DNA of 64,000 bases, taken from Clostridiales bacterium (lineage in GTDB: Bacteria; Bacillota; Desulfotomaculia; Desulfotomaculales; VENG01). The notes under the pieces were generated by a model. The model saw only the letters and a program-made list of their open reading frames with translations, did not search any database and was not told the origin of the DNA. The stretch spans positions 1 through 64,000 of the forward strand of contig JADQBQ010000043.1 in the NCBI GenBank assembly GCA_016278505.1, written 5' to 3'. The translations under genes and the position numbers were made by a program. Positions 8,220-40,126 of this stretch are shown here, piece by piece; the first letter of the stretch is position 1, and each line of letters opens with the position of its first letter.

Positions 8220-8325
8220 GGTGAGTAGCACGGGGGAGTTTCACCCCCAGGACAGCGATAGGTAAGGGTCTTCCACGCATATTACCGATAAAGTAATATC
8301 GTTCGGAAGCCCTTTTCCCCCGCTT

Positions 8326-8362
8326 CACACCGGACGTGAGACTTTAACCTCATCCGGCGCTC
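8326..8362 (-). ncRNA. Group II intron domain V
   Basis: On the minus strand GAGCGCCGGATGAGG, then the AAAGT segment, then CTCACGTCCGGTGTG. This matches the conserved domain V hairpin form (GAGCCGGAUG...GAAAGU...CACGUCCGGUU). It lies just after the maturase stop codon and ~105 nt before the intron 3' end, leaving room for domain VI. Confidence 0.8.
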
Positions 8363-10174: not shown

Positions 10175-10691
10175 TCCCAGAATTCGATGACCCTGCCCCT
10201 TCGCTCCACAACCATTACAGTTGCTTCCTCACTACTACGAGCAGGTCCGCCCCTTATCATGTCATTCGTATTCACTCTTATGCTTCAAACATTTGAGTTT
10301 TCCGTTGGCATCCATGATAAGGTTCTCACGTTCCCTATGAAAGCCTAAATCATGTTCTCGCCGCATTTACGCCGATTGCCGCCTGGTCAGTAAACAGGTT
10401 TTTTCCAGGCTTATCCCTGGGCCCAATACCTGCCCGGTTTTGACAATTCTAAATACCGTATTACGACGCGTCATCCGCGGTTCGCTTTCGCTCGACTCCA
10501 TGATTTACACTTGACTGTTTCGTACAGCCTTTTTCTTCAACGCTCAGCACCACAGATTTTGACTGCAGCACCTTGAAGTAGTTTGACACCCCTTCCTGTA
10601 AAGCGATGCCGAGGGGCCCACCCTCATCTTTCATAGAGCATGACATGAAATTTTAGTGTTGCCACCATCCTTTCATGTCTTCGTGACACAC

Positions 10692-22306: not shown

Positions 22307-22422
22307 GCTCTTATCGAGAGTGGTGGAGGGAAAGGCCCTATGAAACCCGGCAACCCGTTCGGTATTATAACCGGACTTGGTGCTAAATCCTTCAGGGCAA
22401 GTTTGTCCTGGCAGATGAGAGG
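22307..22422 (+). ncRNA. SAM-I (S-box) riboswitch
   Basis: Canonical S-box sequence elements in order: CTCTTATCGAGAGTGG, GGAGGGA, GGCCCTATGAAACCC, GGCAACC, GGTGCTAAATCC, then the 3' closing strand GATGAGAG. The intrinsic terminator at 22436 gives the off state when SAM is bound, so metY-metA are repressed by SAM. Confidence 0.95.
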
Positions 22423-27482: not shown

Positions 27483-28345
27483 CTAATTGCCGTTAACCTG
27501 GGTTGCCAGATCGAGTATTCGGGCCATGGTTTGTTCCCTTCTGGTGTTGATGGCCTCGAAATCCATGTAAGGTACATAGTATTTTTCCATTTCGTCGTGT
27601 TCCTGTTTGGCCTGGGAAATGAACCGGATGGCCTGTTCCATGCTCAGGCGGTACAATTCCCGGGCTACTTTCTTCTCAGCCAGGAACTTTTCATTGATAA
27701 CTGCGTTTACGAACTCTGTGGTGTCAACAACCTTATCTCCGTTTAAGGGTTTAAAGTAGTGAGGTTCCACGGCGTTGATCACCGCTATCCCGATGTCCGG
27801 TATCACCAGGTGGTCTACCAGTGCGGGATCCAGAGCGCAGTGGTATGCTTCTACGTGATGTCCTCTCATTAATGCTGCTTCCATGAGTCGGCGCACCAAT
27901 GTATTTTTGCCGGTGCCGTCATCGCCGTTAATGATGTAGCGTGTTTCTACATCAGCAACTATGCTGTCCAGGTGGCTTTCCGGCCCTTTAGGGGTAATGG
28001 CGGTGGCGAATAAATGCCTGGCTTTGGGGCTGTCAGTCTGACGGGGCTTACCTTCAAATATTTGGTGAGTGAGTTCCAAAACCTTTTTATCCAGAGCCCC
28101 CACATCTAGGGCGCCTGTATCCCGGTAATAGGACTTTACTTCGTCCAGGAATATTTTTGCCGCACCCAGGTAGGAATAGGCGCGCTTGAAAAGTCTTCCC
28201 ACTTCCTTTTTAATGGCCAAAATTTCTTTTTTGTTGGCTCTTAGACCTTCTTCGTTCCAGTGGTCGCCTAAATGAATTATTACGTCCACGGCGCCCGGGT
28301 TTTTGGGATCTACTACGTGAAGGGTCGTTCTGGTAGCCAAACATG
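27483..28345 (-). pseudogene. Tandem P-loop NTPase, 5'-truncated copy
   Basis: Nearly identical over ~285 residues to the intact gene at 32681-33799, from HVVDPKNPGAVDV to the C-terminus, including the second P-loop-like GDDGTGKNT. The N-terminal NTPase half with the first Walker A is missing, and the sequence degrades around 28325-28345. Only a few differences (for example YVPYMD versus YVPFMD) separate the copies, so duplication or gene conversion was recent. Translation from an in-frame start at 28367 is possible but unlikely to be meaningful. Confidence 0.8.
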
Positions 28346-30089: not shown

Positions 30090-30248
30090 TTGAAAAATAA
30101 ACTGGGAACCAAATACAAGGTTGTAGTTAATTATGCCGACAAAAATGATGGCCGCGAGGTACTATCTGAAGCGAGGAGGTATATCTATAATCGTCTGGTA
30201 GAAAAGTTGCACAAAGAAAAAGGAGGGACTATAGCTAAACGTTGTTAG
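30090..30248 (+). CDS. Small protein upstream of a serine recombinase
   Basis: 52 aa from TTG 30090 (LKNKLGTKYKVVVNYADK...), ending 7 nt inside the recombinase start region, so the two were translationally coupled. Basic, with a helix-forming middle (LSEARRYIYNRLVEKLH). No known motif. It probably belongs to the recombinase operon as an accessory or regulatory peptide. A weak GCGAGGGGTG site lies upstream. Confidence 0.55.
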   Translation: MKNKLGTKYKVVVNYADKNDGREVLSEARRYIYNRLVEKLHKEKGGTIAKRC

Positions 30249-32680: not shown

Positions 32681-33799
32681 TTAGTTACCGTTTACTTGGG
32701 CTGCCAGATCCAGTATGTGATCCATGGTTTGTTCTCTTCGGATATTGATGGCCTCGAAATCCATGAAAGGCACGTAGTATTTTTCCATTTCGTCGTGTTC
32801 CTGTTTGGCCTGGGAAATGAACCGGATGGCCTGTTCCATGCTCAGGCGGTACAATTCCCGGGCTACTTTCTTCTCAGCCAGGAACTTTTCATTGATAACT
32901 GCGTTTACGAACTCTGTGGTGTCAACAACCTTATCTCCGTTTAAGGGTTTAAAGTAGTGAGGTTCCACGGCGTTGATCACCGCTATCCCGATGTCCGGTA
33001 TCACCAGGTGGTCTACCAGTGCGGGATCCAGAGCGCAGTGGTATGCTTCTACGTGATGTCCTCTCATTAATGCTGCTTCCATGAGTCGGCGCACCAATGT
33101 ATTTTTGCCGGTGCCGTCATCGCCGTTAATGATGTAGCGTGTTTCTACATCAGCAACTATGCTGTCCAGGTGGCTTTCCGGCCCTTTAGGGGTAATGGCG
33201 GTGGCGAATAAATGCCTGGCTTTGGGGCTGTCAGTCTGACGGGGCTTACCTTCAAATATTTGGTGAGTGAGTTCCAAAACCTTTTTATCCAGAGCCCCCA
33301 CATCTAGGGCGCCTGTATCCCGGTAATAGGACTTTACTTCGTCCAGGAATATTTTTGCCGCACCCAGGTAGGAATAGGCGCGCTTGAAAAGTCTCCCCAC
33401 TTCCTTGTTGGTGGCCAAAATTTCTTTTTTGTTGGCTCTTAAACCTTCTTCGTTCCAGTGATCGCCTAGATGTATTATTACGTCCACGGCGCCCGGGTTT
33501 TTGGGATCTACCACGTGTGGTGCTGTTCCGTCCAGCATGGCTACCCTGATGGACGGTATTACGATGCCGTCCAATGAGTCGTTATCTGAGGAGCAGCAGT
33601 GGAATTCCACATCATAGCCTTTTTCCAGCATGGTCTCGCCTATTTTACGCATAAATGTGGACTTACCCACCCCCGGTCCGCCTTTGATGACAAAAATACG
33701 GGTGGCATCGGGTTCGATGATATAATCATAAAATGAGTAAAAGCCTTGGCTTGTGTTCCCGCCTGGAAATACTTTTTTAAATTTTCCTTTGCTGTTCAA
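32681..33799 (-). CDS. Tandem P-loop NTPase (PRK06851-like)
   Basis: 372 aa. The start is TTG 33799 (LNSKGKFKKVFPGG) with AAGGAGGGT upstream. The first half has Walker A GGPGVGKST, the second half the altered GDDGTGKNT, so two NTPase halves are fused. HVVDPKNPGAVDV and LDGTAPH separate them. No signal peptide. The family is widespread in clostridia and unassigned in function. A nearly identical 5'-truncated copy is 4.3 kb to the left. Divergent from the ANTAR regulator gene. Confidence 0.8.
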   Translation of the reverse strand: MNSKGKFKKVFPGGNTSQGFYSFYDYIIEPDATRIFVIKGGPGVGKSTFMRKIGETMLEKGYDVEFHCCSSDNDSLDGIVIPSIRVAMLDGTAPHVVDPKNPGAVDVIIHLGDHWNEEGLRANKKEILATNKEVGRLFKRAYSYLGAAKIFLDEVKSYYRDTGALDVGALDKKVLELTHQIFEGKPRQTDSPKARHLFATAITPKGPESHLDSIVADVETRYIINGDDGTGKNTLVRRLMEAALMRGHHVEAYHCALDPALVDHLVIPDIGIAVINAVEPHYFKPLNGDKVVDTTEFVNAVINEKFLAEKKVARELYRLSMEQAIRFISQAKQEHDEMEKYYVPFMDFEAINIRREQTMDHILDLAAQVNGN

Positions 33800-34014: not shown

Positions 34015-34593
34015 ATGAATGGTGCCAGGATTGTAATTGCAGATAAGGAAAAAGGCTTCAGGAAGCAGTTGCGGGAAATACTCAAGCAGGCGGGTTACCT
34101 GGTGGTCGGTGAGGCGGAAGATGTAAAGACTACTTTGCACCTGGTTTCCCAGACAGAGCCTGAATTACTGGTACTGGATGTCGATTTGCCGGGTTTCGGA
34201 GAAATGCAATTAATAAGGGTGCTGGAGGAGCGGCGGGTGGTGTCGGTGGTTTTAACCTTTCCCTATGATCACCGGCTAATAGTAGATATGGCCGCTGCCG
34301 GGGGGGTTTTCGGTTTGCTCACCAAACCGGTACAGGAAACCTCGGTTTTCCCTATACTTGAATCGGCCCTGGTAAATTTCAGGCGGGTAAAGCTTCTGGA
34401 AAAGGAAACCGGAAAGCTGCGCCAGGAACTGGAAACACGGAAAGTGGTAGAGCGCGCCAAGGGATTATTGATGGAAAAGAAGGGCATGAATGAGGCGGAC
34501 GCTTTCCGATACTTGCAAAAGCTTAGTATGGATCGTTGTGTAAGTATGATGAAGGTGGCCAAACAAACTGTTATAACCTTGCAAAACCGGTAA
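34015..34593 (+). CDS. ANTAR-domain response regulator 1
   Basis: 192 aa, ATG 34015 behind GAGGTG. An N-terminal receiver with phosphoacceptor D55 (LLVLDVDLPG) and conserved Lys in LLTKPVQ, a coiled-coil linker (KLLEKETGKLRQELETRK), and a C-terminal ANTAR helix bundle (VVERAKGLLMEKKGMNEADAF). ANTAR proteins bind paired hexaloop hairpins in leader RNA and prevent termination. The glnA paralogue directly downstream has such a leader (34680-34757), and so does the second glnA. The partner kinase is not in the window. Confidence 0.9.
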   Translation: MNGARIVIADKEKGFRKQLREILKQAGYLVVGEAEDVKTTLHLVSQTEPELLVLDVDLPGFGEMQLIRVLEERRVVSVVLTFPYDHRLIVDMAAAGGVFGLLTKPVQETSVFPILESALVNFRRVKLLEKETGKLRQELETRKVVERAKGLLMEKKGMNEADAFRYLQKLSMDRCVSMMKVAKQTVITLQNR

Positions 34594-34679: not shown

Positions 34680-34757
34680 TTATGCAAATAAAAGGGCAAT
34701 GGCGTCCTTTCCACGAGTTAATGTTAATCGCATTAACCCCTGGAAGGACGCTTTTTA
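34680..34757 (+). ncRNA. Candidate ANTAR-responsive antiterminator leader 1
   Basis: Hairpin P2 AAGGGC-AATGGC-GTCCTT (34692-34709) has a hexaloop with A at 1 and G at 4, the ANTAR RNA signature. It overlaps the 5' arm of a terminator formed by GCGTCCTTTCCA (34702-) and TGGAAGGACGC (34741-34751) with a T tail, so the two are mutually exclusive. A small stem TTAT-GCAA-ATAA (34680-34691) lies where P1 should be but lacks a clear A1/G4 loop. Confidence 0.65.
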
Positions 34758-34788: not shown

Positions 34789-36117
34789 GTGAAAGCTTTT
34801 ACAAAGCAAGATGTAATAGAAAAAGCACGTGAATACGACGTAAAGTTTATACGCCTTCAATTTACCAATATACTGGGGTCTTTAAAAAATATCGCCATTA
34901 CCATTGAGGAGCTGGAAAGAGCACTGAACGGCCAAATCAGTTTTGACAGTTCGGTTATAGAGGGATCCACAGGCTTTAGGGAATCGTCTGTTTACCTTTA
35001 CCCGGACCCCAGCACCTTTGTTATTTTTCCCTGGCGACCGCGGGAAGGGGCGGTGGCCCGGCTTATATGTGACGTGGCCGCTCCGGACGGGTCTCCATTT
35101 GGAGGGTGCTCTCGCTTAGCACTGCGTAATGTGATTAATGAATACTCTAATGCAGGATTGGACCTGCAGGTGGGGGCAGAGGTAGAATTTTTCCTATTTC
35201 ATACTGATGAGAGGGGTAAGCCCACCGTGGTTACGCATGACCAGGCCGGGTACTGTGACATGACCCCGGTAGATATGGGGGAGAATGCCAGGCGTGACAT
35301 GGTGCTTACGCTGCAGGAAATGGGTTTTGATGTTTCCTCGTCCCACCATGAAATAGCTCCAGGACAGCACGAGATTTTCCTGAAAGAAGATAATGCTCTA
35401 ACTATGGCGGACAGTATTGCAACTTTTAAATTTGTGGTCCGTACTATTGCCCAGAGACATGGGCTGCATGCTACATTTATGCCCAAGCCCCTTGCTGATC
35501 ACAATGGTTCGGGGATGCACTTGCATTATTCCCTCTGGGAAGAGACGGAAAATATCTTTCATGACCCACAGGCGCATAAAGGGCACAGTGAAATTCTTTA
35601 CAACTATACCGGGGGCATTTTATACCATGCCAGGGCTATAACGGCCATAACCAACCCGCTGATTAATTCATATAAACGGCTGGCCCTGAATGATCTGGCA
35701 CCTGTGCTGGCCAGCTGGTCCGCGGAAAATAGGAGCACCATGCTGCGGGTTGAAAATCAGCCTGGCAAAGGTCCCAGTGTAGTACTAAGAAGCCCGGACC
35801 CGGCCTCAAACCCCTACCTAGCACTGGCGGTAACTATGAAGGCCGGCCTGGACGGGGTGGAAAAGAAAATGTCCTGTCCCGATGCGGTATCCGGAGATTC
35901 CAGCGAATCAGTAGATATCCGTAGACTGAGAAGGGAAATGGGGCTGCCACCCAGGCTGGAAGAAGCGTTAAAAGCGCTAAATACAGATGACGTCATAGGC
36001 GAGGCACTGGGCGGACACATCCGGCAGCGCTTCATGAAAACAAAGGAAAACGAGCTGGAACGGTTTCACCTGCAGGTGCACCAGTGGGAGATTGAGGAGT
36101 ATTTGAAAAGTTATTAA
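34789..36117 (+). CDS. Divergent glutamine synthetase paralogue
   Basis: 442 aa, GTG 34789 with TTGGAGGA. Clear GlnA-I fold: ISFDSSVIEG, GAEVEFFLF, SSSHHEIAPGQHEI, GSGMHLHYSL. But GYEAP of canonical GS reads NDLAP (catalytic flap E327 in E. coli numbering is L303 here), and [13 protein letters not shown] reads KGPSVVLRSPD (R355 to Ser, metal ligand E357 to Val332). The canonical paralogue at 38795 keeps all of these. It may use another substrate, work poorly, or be regulatory. It lies in the ANTAR-controlled nitrogen locus. Confidence 0.85.
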   Translation: MKAFTKQDVIEKAREYDVKFIRLQFTNILGSLKNIAITIEELERALNGQISFDSSVIEGSTGFRESSVYLYPDPSTFVIFPWRPREGAVARLICDVAAPDGSPFGGCSRLALRNVINEYSNAGLDLQVGAEVEFFLFHTDERGKPTVVTHDQAGYCDMTPVDMGENARRDMVLTLQEMGFDVSSSHHEIAPGQHEIFLKEDNALTMADSIATFKFVVRTIAQRHGLHATFMPKPLADHNGSGMHLHYSLWEETENIFHDPQAHKGHSEILYNYTGGILYHARAITAITNPLINSYKRLALNDLAPVLASWSAENRSTMLRVENQPGKGPSVVLRSPDPASNPYLALAVTMKAGLDGVEKKMSCPDAVSGDSSESVDIRRLRREMGLPPRLEEALKALNTDDVIGEALGGHIRQRFMKTKENELERFHLQVHQWEIEEYLKSY

Positions 36118-37859: not shown

Positions 37860-37892
37860 GCCCCGGTAGTTTGGGAATATAATTTGTAGGGC

Positions 37893-37935
37893 AAAGATGT
37901 CCTCGGCAGGTTTACCTGTTAGGGGACATCTTTTT
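37893..37935 (+). terminator. Rho-independent terminator
   Basis: AAAGATGTCC / GGACATCTTT stem with an inner GGCAGG/CCTGTT stem and a T run, after the glutamate-synthase-like gene. Confidence 0.8.
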
Positions 37936-37988: not shown

Positions 37989-38576
37989 GTGGGGAACCAG
38001 AGAGTCGTACTGGCAGATAATGACAGTGCCTCGAGAAAGAATATTAAGGCTCAGCTCTCACGATTCGATAACTGGGTCGTGGGTGAGGCTGGTGACGGTA
38101 TAACTGCGCTGAAGCTGGTCAGGAGCAGGCAACCGGACCTGTTGGTAACTAAAGCATTTCTCCCGGGTATGGATGGTGTGCAGGTGGCTAAAATAATGCG
38201 GCAGGATAATCTGGCACCCGTGGTTTTAGTAGGGTCGTCCTTCCAGCAAAGTGTGCTGGAAAAGGCAAGAGATGCAGGTGTTTTCGCTTTCCTGCAAAGC
38301 CCTGTTGAGGATTCGTCCCTGCTCACTGCGGTGGAGTTGGCAGCTGCTAATTACCGGGAAATGATGCGGCTGGAAGGAAAAATACAAGACCTGGAAAGAA
38401 AGCTGCAAACCCGGAAAGTTGTAGAGAAGGCTAAAGGTATACTAATGGAAACAAAGAGTGTGTCAGAGGCAGAGGCATTCAGCATGATGCAAAAACAGAG
38501 TATGAATGAGAGAAAAGGGATGCAGGCCATCGCTGAGGCTATAATAATGGCCTATAATCTAATGCAAGACATATGA
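37989..38576 (+). CDS. ANTAR-domain regulator 2, receiver lacks the phosphoacceptor
   Basis: 195 aa, GTG 37989 with AAAGGAGG. Same architecture as the regulator at 34015, but the phosphoacceptor position is Lys (K55 in LLVTKAFLPGMDG), and the conserved Lys of the fifth strand is Ser (FLQSPVED). The acidic pair near the N-terminus is kept. The ANTAR part (VVEKAKGILMETKSVSEAEAF) looks intact. It should not be switched by ordinary phosphorylation. It may dimerise with regulator 1, sense a ligand or be constitutive. It precedes the second glnA leader. Confidence 0.9.
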   Translation: MGNQRVVLADNDSASRKNIKAQLSRFDNWVVGEAGDGITALKLVRSRQPDLLVTKAFLPGMDGVQVAKIMRQDNLAPVVLVGSSFQQSVLEKARDAGVFAFLQSPVEDSSLLTAVELAAANYREMMRLEGKIQDLERKLQTRKVVEKAKGILMETKSVSEAEAFSMMQKQSMNERKGMQAIAEAIIMAYNLMQDI

Positions 38577-38680: not shown

Positions 38681-38760
38681 GCGAGATATCGCTTAATGGG
38701 CAATGGGGCCTGCATGTTTCAGGGTGAGTATAATCACCCTGATATACTGTGGGCTTTTTA
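38681..38760 (+). ncRNA. Candidate ANTAR-responsive antiterminator leader 2
   Basis: P2 hairpin GGGC-AATGGG-GCCT (38698-38711) with an A1/G4 hexaloop. Its 3' arm is also the 5' arm of the terminator GCCTGCA...TGTGGGC (38708-38754), which contains an inner CAGGGTGA/TCACCCTG stem and ends in TTTTTATGTTTTT. A GCG-AGATAT-CGC stem (38681-38692) sits at the P1 place. Same arrangement as leader 1. Confidence 0.7.
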
Positions 38761-38794
38761 TGTTTTTATAGCTTAGAGAAGGGTGTGACAATCT

Positions 38795-40126
38795 TTGTCC
38801 AAACTTACCCACGACGATGTGCGTAATTTGGCCCGGGAACTGGGAGTGAAATTTATACGGCTCCAGTTTACCGACATTTTCGGCGTATTAAAGAATGTAT
38901 CAATTACAGTAGAGCAGCTGGATAAGGCACTTGATGGTGAATTAATGTTTGACGGCTCTTCCATCGAAGGTTTTGTGCGTATCGAAGAATCGGATATGTA
39001 CCTGCGCCCGGACCCCTCTACATTTGTGGTTTTTCCCTGGAAACCCAGGGAGGGGGCAGTAGCCAGGCTTATTTGCGACATCTACGATTCCGAAGGACAG
39101 CGCTTTATAGGTGACCCCCGCAATGTGTTGCGGCGCGCTATTGACGATGCCGCGGAATTGGGCTACAGCATGAATGTAGGTCCCGAGGCGGAGTTTTTCC
39201 TGTTTCACGTGGACGGGGACGGTAGGCCCACTACAATAACCCATGATCAGGCCGGTTACTTTGATTTAACACCGGTGGATTTGGGTGAAAACGCCCGCCG
39301 TGATATGGTGATCACGTTGGAGCAGATGGGCTTTGAGATTGAAGCCTCGCATCACGAAGTGGCGCCGGGGCAGCATGAGATTGACTTTAAGTATTCGGAC
39401 GCGCTGGATATAGCGGATAAAATAGTTACCTTTAAATTTGTAGTGCGCACCATTGCACAGCGGCACGGGCTGCATGCAACCTTTATGCCCAAGCCAATAT
39501 TCGGTATTGCCGGGTCGGGGATGCACCTAAACCAGTCACTGATGAAAAATGGAAGCAATGCTTTTTATGATCCCGAGGGGGATAACAAGCTCAGTAAGGA
39601 CTGCCAACACTATATTGGAGGCCTTATGGCTCATGCGGCTGCCATTACGGCGGTGGCCAACCCTAATATTAACTCGTATAAGCGCCTGGTATCGGGCTAC
39701 GAGGCTCCAGTGTATATGGCATGGTCTTACAGAAACCGCAGTCCTTTGGTGCGCGTGCCTGCAAAGCGCGGGCCTTCAACTAGAGTTGAGCTGAGAAGCC
39801 CGGATCCTTCCTGTAACCCGTATCTGGCTCTGGCAGCCTGCTTGCGGGCCGGCATGGATGGTATCAAAAACAAAATTGAGCCCCCGCCGCCCTGTGATCG
39901 TAATATATATGAACTAACAGCCGGTGAGCGCAAGGAATTGGGTATTGGTACCCTGCCTGAAAGCTTGAACGAAGCTATGTTGGAACTTTCCACCGACGAT
40001 GTAATTAAAGACACTCTTGGTAAGCATGTATTGCAGCGTTTCATGGAAGCCAAAAAAATAGAGTGGGACCGTTACCGCACCCAGGTTCATCCTTGGGAGC
40101 TTGAAGAATACCTGAGCAAATTTTAA
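38795..40126 (+). CDS. glnA: Glutamine synthetase type I
   Basis: 443 aa from TTG 38795 (GAGAAGGG upstream). All active-site blocks are present: [51 protein letters not shown], and [19 protein letters not shown] with the Arg/Glu pair missing from the paralogue. Makes glutamine from glutamate, ammonium and ATP. Length and absence of the adenylylation Tyr loop fit the GSI-alpha group of Firmicutes, normally controlled by feedback. Expression here probably also depends on ANTAR antitermination. Confidence 0.95.

Follow-up and report, generated by a model that had tools for sequence, protein, structure and literature searches.

A glnA-linked ANTAR regulator lacking the phosphotransfer residues of its receiver, in a cluster with a predicted pseudo-glutamine synthetase

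Regulator 2, encoded on the forward strand at positions 37989-38576 of the window (the whole stretch of 64,000 nucleotides that was analysed), is a receiver-ANTAR protein in which the residues of phosphotransfer have been replaced. With a probability of about 0.55 it is read here as an antiterminator that would act independently of phosphorylation and whose activity would depend on how much of it is synthesised and, less certainly, on a partner of the glutamine synthetase family. Judged from the sequences, the regulator-2 class has lost the constraint on the phosphorylation site, has kept its output domain and has not itself been lost.

The genes of both regulators are intact open reading frames, and both products score above the Pfam cut-offs for the receiver (PF00072) and ANTAR (PF03861) domains; in regulator 2 the receiver reaches 59.6 bits and the ANTAR domain 69.7 bits (cut-off 27.3). 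The pairwise alignment of the two proteins (36% identity) agrees with the first-pass annotation, which had noted Lys for the phosphoacceptor Asp and Ser for the conserved Lys in regulator 2, and Asp and Lys in the paralogue at 34015: regulator 2 has K55 (codon AAA at 38151-38153) and S104, regulator 1 has D55 and K104. Position 82 of regulator 2, aligned to the conserved receiver Thr/Ser of Rv1626 and EutV, is Gly. With all three sites replaced, the receiver would probably not be phosphorylated in the normal way, as had been proposed earlier from the first two. The acidic-pocket residues D10 and D12 are retained, and so are the RNA-contact residues R142, K149, E160, F164 and M172. Regulator 2 thereby combines a receiver fold with the absence of the three phosphotransfer residues, as expected of a pseudo-receiver, and does not have the set of Asp, Thr/Ser and Lys that defines EutV-type phospho-control. 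An AlphaFold2 model with a mean pLDDT of 77.3 shows a receiver, a long helix and an ANTAR bundle (this model had the two window proteins as its only input; the other four models had pLDDT below 60), and its best Foldseek matches were EutV and Rv1626.

The neighbouring genes are all encoded on the same strand. Regulator 1 (34015-34593), assigned by its Pfam domains, the pairwise alignment and its membership in a clade of 57 proteins, is followed by GlnA1 (34789-36117), a predicted pseudo-glutamine synthetase, then by a protein with a glutamate synthase domain (PF01645; 36279-37859) whose position in the cluster is conserved, by regulator 2, and by GlnA2 (38795-40126), a glutamine synthetase of the b type with 12 of the 12 checked catalytic residues present. 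This order, with a second GlnA2 gene as an optional last member, recurs in the loci of many relatives, and the earlier statement that the two regulators share architecture and locus was borne out. With regulator 2 as query, a match was found in 118 of 120 relatives. The sample drew on the own genome and on 85 of the matched relatives, with 98 usable stretches in all (two further stretches, 100-base fillers, were excluded), and together with the window it yielded 150 full-length receiver-ANTAR proteins. These were divided into the regulator-1 clade (57 proteins, support 0.996), the regulator-2-type proteins with a GlnA2 gene behind them (82) and 11 others. When named genomes were scanned for regulator 2, a single distant match was obtained (L104), at a locus with no counted gene.

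Residue 55 varies widely among the 82 regulator-2-type proteins: it is Glu in 37, Asp in 31, His in 4, Gln in 4, Gly in 3, and Ala, Asn and Lys in one each, the only Lys being that of the window protein. Whether K55 is fixed in orthologues, a check that the first-pass annotation had suggested, is thus answered in the negative; what recurs is the absence of Asp (51 of the 82 proteins), mostly with Glu instead. Fitch parsimony gave at least 10 switches between Asp and non-Asp at site 55 (19 or more in 200 label shuffles) and 17 residue changes. Ranked for conservation by entropy among the 112 receiver positions of the regulator-2-type proteins, site 55 is 82nd, K104 13th and D12 21st. Residue 104 is Lys in 79 proteins, Ser in two (regulator 2 and L031) and Arg in one. 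The residues R142, K149, E160 and M172 are invariant in all 82 proteins, and residue 164 is always either Phe or Tyr. Because Asp55 is present in 31 of the proteins, and the full set of D55, K104 and T/S82 in 21, phosphorylation may still matter in some lineages. The conservation of K104 could reflect selection on a phospho-like salt bridge between Glu55 and Lys104, and not on a free protein-binding surface. The other protein with Ser104, encoded at 2494-3084 of L031, has Glu55 and represents an independent loss of the receiver Lys.

The regulator-1 clade is also mixed at this site, with Asp in 38 of the 57 proteins, Glu in 17 and Ser in 2. The earlier scheme, in which a phospho-switchable regulator is paired with a constitutive or partner-controlled one, therefore finds no support as something special to regulator 1 and regulator 2, since Glu55 occurs on both sides. 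The search for HisKA_2 kinases (PF07568; the one kinase family searched) gave no match in the own genome and found such a kinase in 14 of the 120 relatives. EutW, the partner of EutV, is a kinase of this class. Regulator-1-clade proteins with Ser55 and Pro104 are encoded at L007 (6462-7052) and L054 (6686-7339).

The phylogeny groups regulator 2 with a protein of a relative, G001 (Glu55, Lys104), and with a second copy from the own genome, in stretch L004 (Asp55, Lys104), with a support of 0.887. The suspicion of a recent decay, which Asp in close relatives would have signalled, finds an echo in this same-genome paralogue, the only member of the small clade with Asp55; it does not agree with the other nearest relatives, which mostly have Glu55 (G001, L020 and others), nor with the root-to-tip length of regulator 2, which is ordinary (rank 40 of 82) and makes simple decay unlikely. 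As Glu and Lys codons differ by one G-to-A transition, Glu55 is the most likely ancestral state behind Lys55. Regulator 2 deviates at 6 of the 62 positions with a conservation of 90% or more in the class, the class median being 1.5, which fits some relaxation after duplication and counts to a degree against the preferred reading.

The second copy, regulator 2' (D55, K104), lies on contig C56 (L004, 5638-8587) between a PII gene and a glnA gene (GlnA2a); the adjoining PII and amtB-like genes presumably are what their translations, from which they were named, suggest. In many relatives a tandem pair of GlnA2 genes lies downstream of regulator 2, and the window GlnA2 resembles the second of the pair (76-88% identity in most loci) more closely than it does the first (about 67-77%). 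We infer that regulator 2 was duplicated and the pair then split, regulator 2' and GlnA2a now being on C56, and the K55 form and GlnA2b in the window.

GlnA1 looks like a conserved, catalytically dead pseudo-glutamine synthetase, as far as its residues can be compared with those of other synthetases. In an alignment of 140 synthetases it forms one clade with 53 relatives (support 1.0), and the equivalents of E327, E357 and Ser53 are missing in all 54 (in GlnA1 itself they are Leu, Val and Val). In enterobacterial numbering these residues presumably are the catalytic base, a metal ligand and part of the ammonium site, respectively. Among the other 86 synthetases E327 and E357 are kept in 86 and Ser53 in 85, and all 12 checked residues are present in the four further synthetases detected in the own genome. 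The GlnA1 clade retains R321 (54/54), R359 (53/54) and E212 (53/54), so that ligand binding may survive. GlnA1 follows regulator 1 directly in 52 of the 57 members of the regulator-1 clade; in the remaining five the next gene is the glutamate synthase gene (three cases) or no probe gene is present on the strand (two cases). When evolutionary distances were compared, the highest partial correlation was that of regulator 2 with GlnA1 (0.58, 47 loci), which is given little weight because the glutamate synthase control mixes two paralogues, some only 40% identical. Searches of open-access literature gave nothing that was recognised as dealing with a pseudo-glutamine synthetase accompanying ANTAR regulators or with Asp-less glnA-linked ANTAR proteins, which is not proof of absence.

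ANTAR-type leaders were defined by a hexaloop (A1, G4) whose stem has four or more pairs and which is overlapped by a terminator. Such leaders do precede the glnA genes, as the earlier scheme of two regulators acting on two glnA leaders had supposed; the window has three of them and not two, the third lying before the gene of regulator 2 itself. On the forward strand, the glnA1 leader (34690-34757; single hexaloop GGGC[AATGGC]GTCC) and the leader of regulator 2 (37885-37934; AGGGC[AAAGAT]GTCCT) were found by the hexaloop and terminator search and by covariance model R1 (41.2 bits, and 27.6 bits with E 8.6e-4, respectively). The glnA2 leader (38697-38775; TGGGC[AATGGG]GCCTG) was found by the hexaloop and terminator search only and is not among the nine R1 matches in the own genome. 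The same search showed no ANTAR-type leader upstream of regulator 1 in the window. Across the sample, leaders conforming to the definition are present upstream of glnA1 in 53 of 55 cases (1.7 in dinucleotide shuffles), of glnA2 in 99 of 130 (2.0), of regulator 2 in 26 of 94 (1.7 in shuffles; 68 of 94 under a laxer stem rule), of the glutamate synthase gene in 5 of 66 (0.0 in dinucleotide shuffles) and of regulator 1 in only 2 of 56 (1.0).

When 40 of the 53 glnA1 leaders were aligned, their terminator was seen to comprise 17 pairs, 12 of which show compensatory changes. The competing P2 stem is 98% paired, a percentage reached by none of 500 shuffles, and its outermost pair covaries (GC in 18 leaders, AU in 13, GU in 5, other in 4). 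A scan for -10 and -35 elements predicted a promoter in all 53 glnA1 leaders, with a median distance of 25 nt from the -10 to P2 downstream; in the window 26 nt separate the end of the predicted -10 from the P2 stem. Since promoters would be expected in 21 of the 53 leaders from shuffles, the short distance between promoter and P2 is suggestive only.

Dual hexaloops (P1 followed by P2) occur in at least 35 of 94 regulator-2 leaders and at least 48 of 130 glnA2 leaders, both counts being lower bounds because the P1 hairpin was at times picked as P2 by the automatic procedure (e.g. gggtac[AATGAT]gtgccc). None was found among the 53 glnA1 leaders, where 1.1 would be expected by chance. The three window leaders all consist of P2 only, with no P1 hexaloop (A1, G4) upstream at close spacing; in the glnA2 leader the P1 place is taken by a hairpin with the tetraloop GCGA[GATA]TCGC and no consensus hexaloop. 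Leaders with dual hexaloops lie upstream of both regulator 2' and GlnA2a, and two strict dual patterns matched the own genome at three places only, all on C56 (the glutamate-synthase operon, regulator 2' and GlnA2a), with no match for the reversed control. Model R1 also recognised, on C56, the glutamate-synthase operon (27.3 bits), an asparagine-synthase gene (26.6 bits) and the leaders of regulator 2' (21.8 bits) and GlnA2a (17.6 bits); its other matches were a weak one inside a coding region on C36 (18.5 bits) and two with E above 3. Similar hexaloops were read by eye upstream of a glnA gene at C56:113413. Thus the K55 regulator is placed among single-hexaloop leaders and the D55 copy among dual ones, a pairing seen in one genome that may be due to chance. 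The C56 leaders of the asparagine synthase gene and of the glutamate-synthase operon (L114, 6586-7090) are divergent, the former with a single hexaloop and the latter with a dual one.

NitR of Clostridium is an ANTAR-type antiterminator linked to glnA. Regulator 2 resembles EutV (EutW/EutV of Enterococcus faecalis), which has the same receiver and ANTAR architecture, was the best Foldseek match, shares the RNA-contact residues except that Tyr164 is Phe in regulator 2, and likewise goes with a terminator-overlapping hexaloop that has A1 and G4. In the available text of PMC8934654, residues equivalent to R142, K149, E160, Tyr164 and M172 make the hexaloop contacts, and Asp54 of EutV is phosphorylated by EutW; regulator 2 differs in having Lys, in a genome in which no HisKA_2 kinase was found. 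One hexaloop is given as the minimal binding unit of EutV and two as needed in vivo in the accessible parts of PMC3369931 and PMC8934654, whereas each window leader shows a single one. AmiR of Pseudomonas aeruginosa resembles regulator 2 as an ANTAR protein with a pseudo-receiver devoid of phosphorylation residues (PMC8934654, as far as available) and offers a model for control by a partner. AmiR is absent, however, from the sequence and Foldseek matches listed for regulator 2, and its partner AmiC binds ligands; nothing like AmiC was seen among the genes of the window locus, where the neighbour is a synthetase-like protein. In Paracoccus denitrificans, the portion of PMC3795266 at hand describes a receiver-bearing ANTAR regulator, NasT, held by the ligand sensor NasS and freed on ligand binding, although there the sensor binds nitrate or nitrite and the target is nasA. 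Ramesh et al. (2012, PMC3369931) predicted ANTAR target RNAs next to genes of glutamate synthase and further nitrogen genes in Desulfotomaculum reducens and D. acetoxidans; the available part of that paper mentions neither loss of the phospho-Asp nor a pseudo-synthetase nor a single-hexaloop class in these regulons. Pseudo-receiver ANTAR proteins (AmiR) and ANTAR targets at Desulfotomaculum nitrogen genes are thus already known (PMC3369931, in the part available). The repeated loss of the phosphorylation site in a glnA-linked class, the conserved pseudo-synthetase and the class of single-hexaloop leaders are new as far as literature searches show.

According to the preferred reading, regulator 2 would antiterminate without phosphorylation of its receiver, which would serve, as in AmiR, as a module for protein binding and dimerisation. 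The amount of the protein would be set by read-through of its own leader, caused by regulator 1, by regulator 2 itself or by the second copy. Less certainly, a glutamine-synthetase-family protein of the same cluster, GlnA1 in the first place, might bind and switch it, and this binding might carry nitrogen status to regulator 2 with no kinase involved; gating by GlnA1 would then be analogous to that of AmiC on AmiR and NasS on NasT. Because the phosphorylation site has been lost repeatedly with the RNA-gripping part intact, and GlnA1 is apparently dead, the locus may sense nitrogen without phosphorylation. A complete kinase-free circuit, in which dead GlnA1 would read glutamine status and control phosphorylation-less ANTAR regulators acting on single-hexaloop leaders before GlnA1 and before the regulator itself, is a speculative extension, more doubtful than the core of the reading.

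If GlnA1 itself is the centre of control, binding glutamine, glutamate or a nucleotide and holding or releasing the ANTAR regulators, phosphorylation would become dispensable. This explanation is tentative. The loss of E327 and E357 throughout a monophyletic class and their retention in all other synthetases, the regular position of GlnA1 behind regulator 1 and behind its own ANTAR-type leader, and the precedents of AmiC-AmiR and NasS-NasT (PMC8934654, PMC3795266, both as far as available) speak for it, and the peak of the distance correlation adds a weak hint, reduced by its poor control. The five regulator-1 genes without GlnA1 directly behind them do not agree with it, and GlnA1 might have a different role, either in adjusting mixed GlnA oligomers or as the catalyst of some other reaction. 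Slightly less plausible is a receiver locked in the active state, K55 pairing with D10 and D12 in place of the metal and K104 and fixing a dimer-competent form, in which case only expression would set activity. The coincidence of K55 with S104, the usual Lys being gone while D10 and D12 stay, would suit such a state, and the leader of the gene would provide the expression switch; Glu55 of the relatives, one G-to-A step from Lys, may mimic phospho-Asp, but His, Gln, Gly and Ala at the same site are unlike a phospho-mimic. Altered expression of a constitutively active pseudo-receiver is named as a possibility in the accessible part of a 2025 review (PMC12632262).

That regulator 2 acts only as the partner of regulator 1 or of the second regulator-2 copy, binding the same leaders and raising or damping their output, appears improbable. 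The two regulators have the same architecture, neighbouring genes and a common leader type, and WhiI/BldM offers a precedent (PMC12632262, in the part available), yet they are only 36% identical. Slighter still is the chance that the regulator 2 of the cluster became dispensable after the duplication and is decaying, its function being carried by the D55/K104 copy with glnA2a on C56. The second copy adjoins glnA2a, PII and amtB genes, K55 is found in regulator 2 alone and S104 in 2 of the 82 proteins, which speaks for this explanation; the intact reading frame, the ordinary root-to-tip length, the invariant RNA-contact residues and the retained leader argue against it, and lack of Asp55 is in any case the majority state of the class.

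The available part of PMC12632262 names the switching of pseudo-receivers as an open problem. In regulator 2 the output joined to the pseudo-receiver is a known RNA-binding one, and the leader can be read as transcription read-through. As residue 55 varies naturally in a conserved cluster (Asp, Glu, His, Gln, Gly, Ala, Asn, Lys), receiver swaps make the question directly testable, with the adjacent pseudo-synthetase as a concrete candidate sensor. The single-hexaloop leaders also raise the question of whether recruitment by a first hairpin is a general requirement.

At the gathering threshold, Rfam found no ANTAR leader in the window, the matches being group II intron pieces, a SAM riboswitch and tRNA; two group II intron pieces and the SAM riboswitch lie at 8252-8362, 10509-10625 and 22308-22421. 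The window also includes a direct repeat, 300 nt or more in length and with 94% identity between its copies (27484-27783 and 32682-32981), located in two open reading frames, the longer one P-loop NTPase-like, which flank a resolvase gene at 30242.
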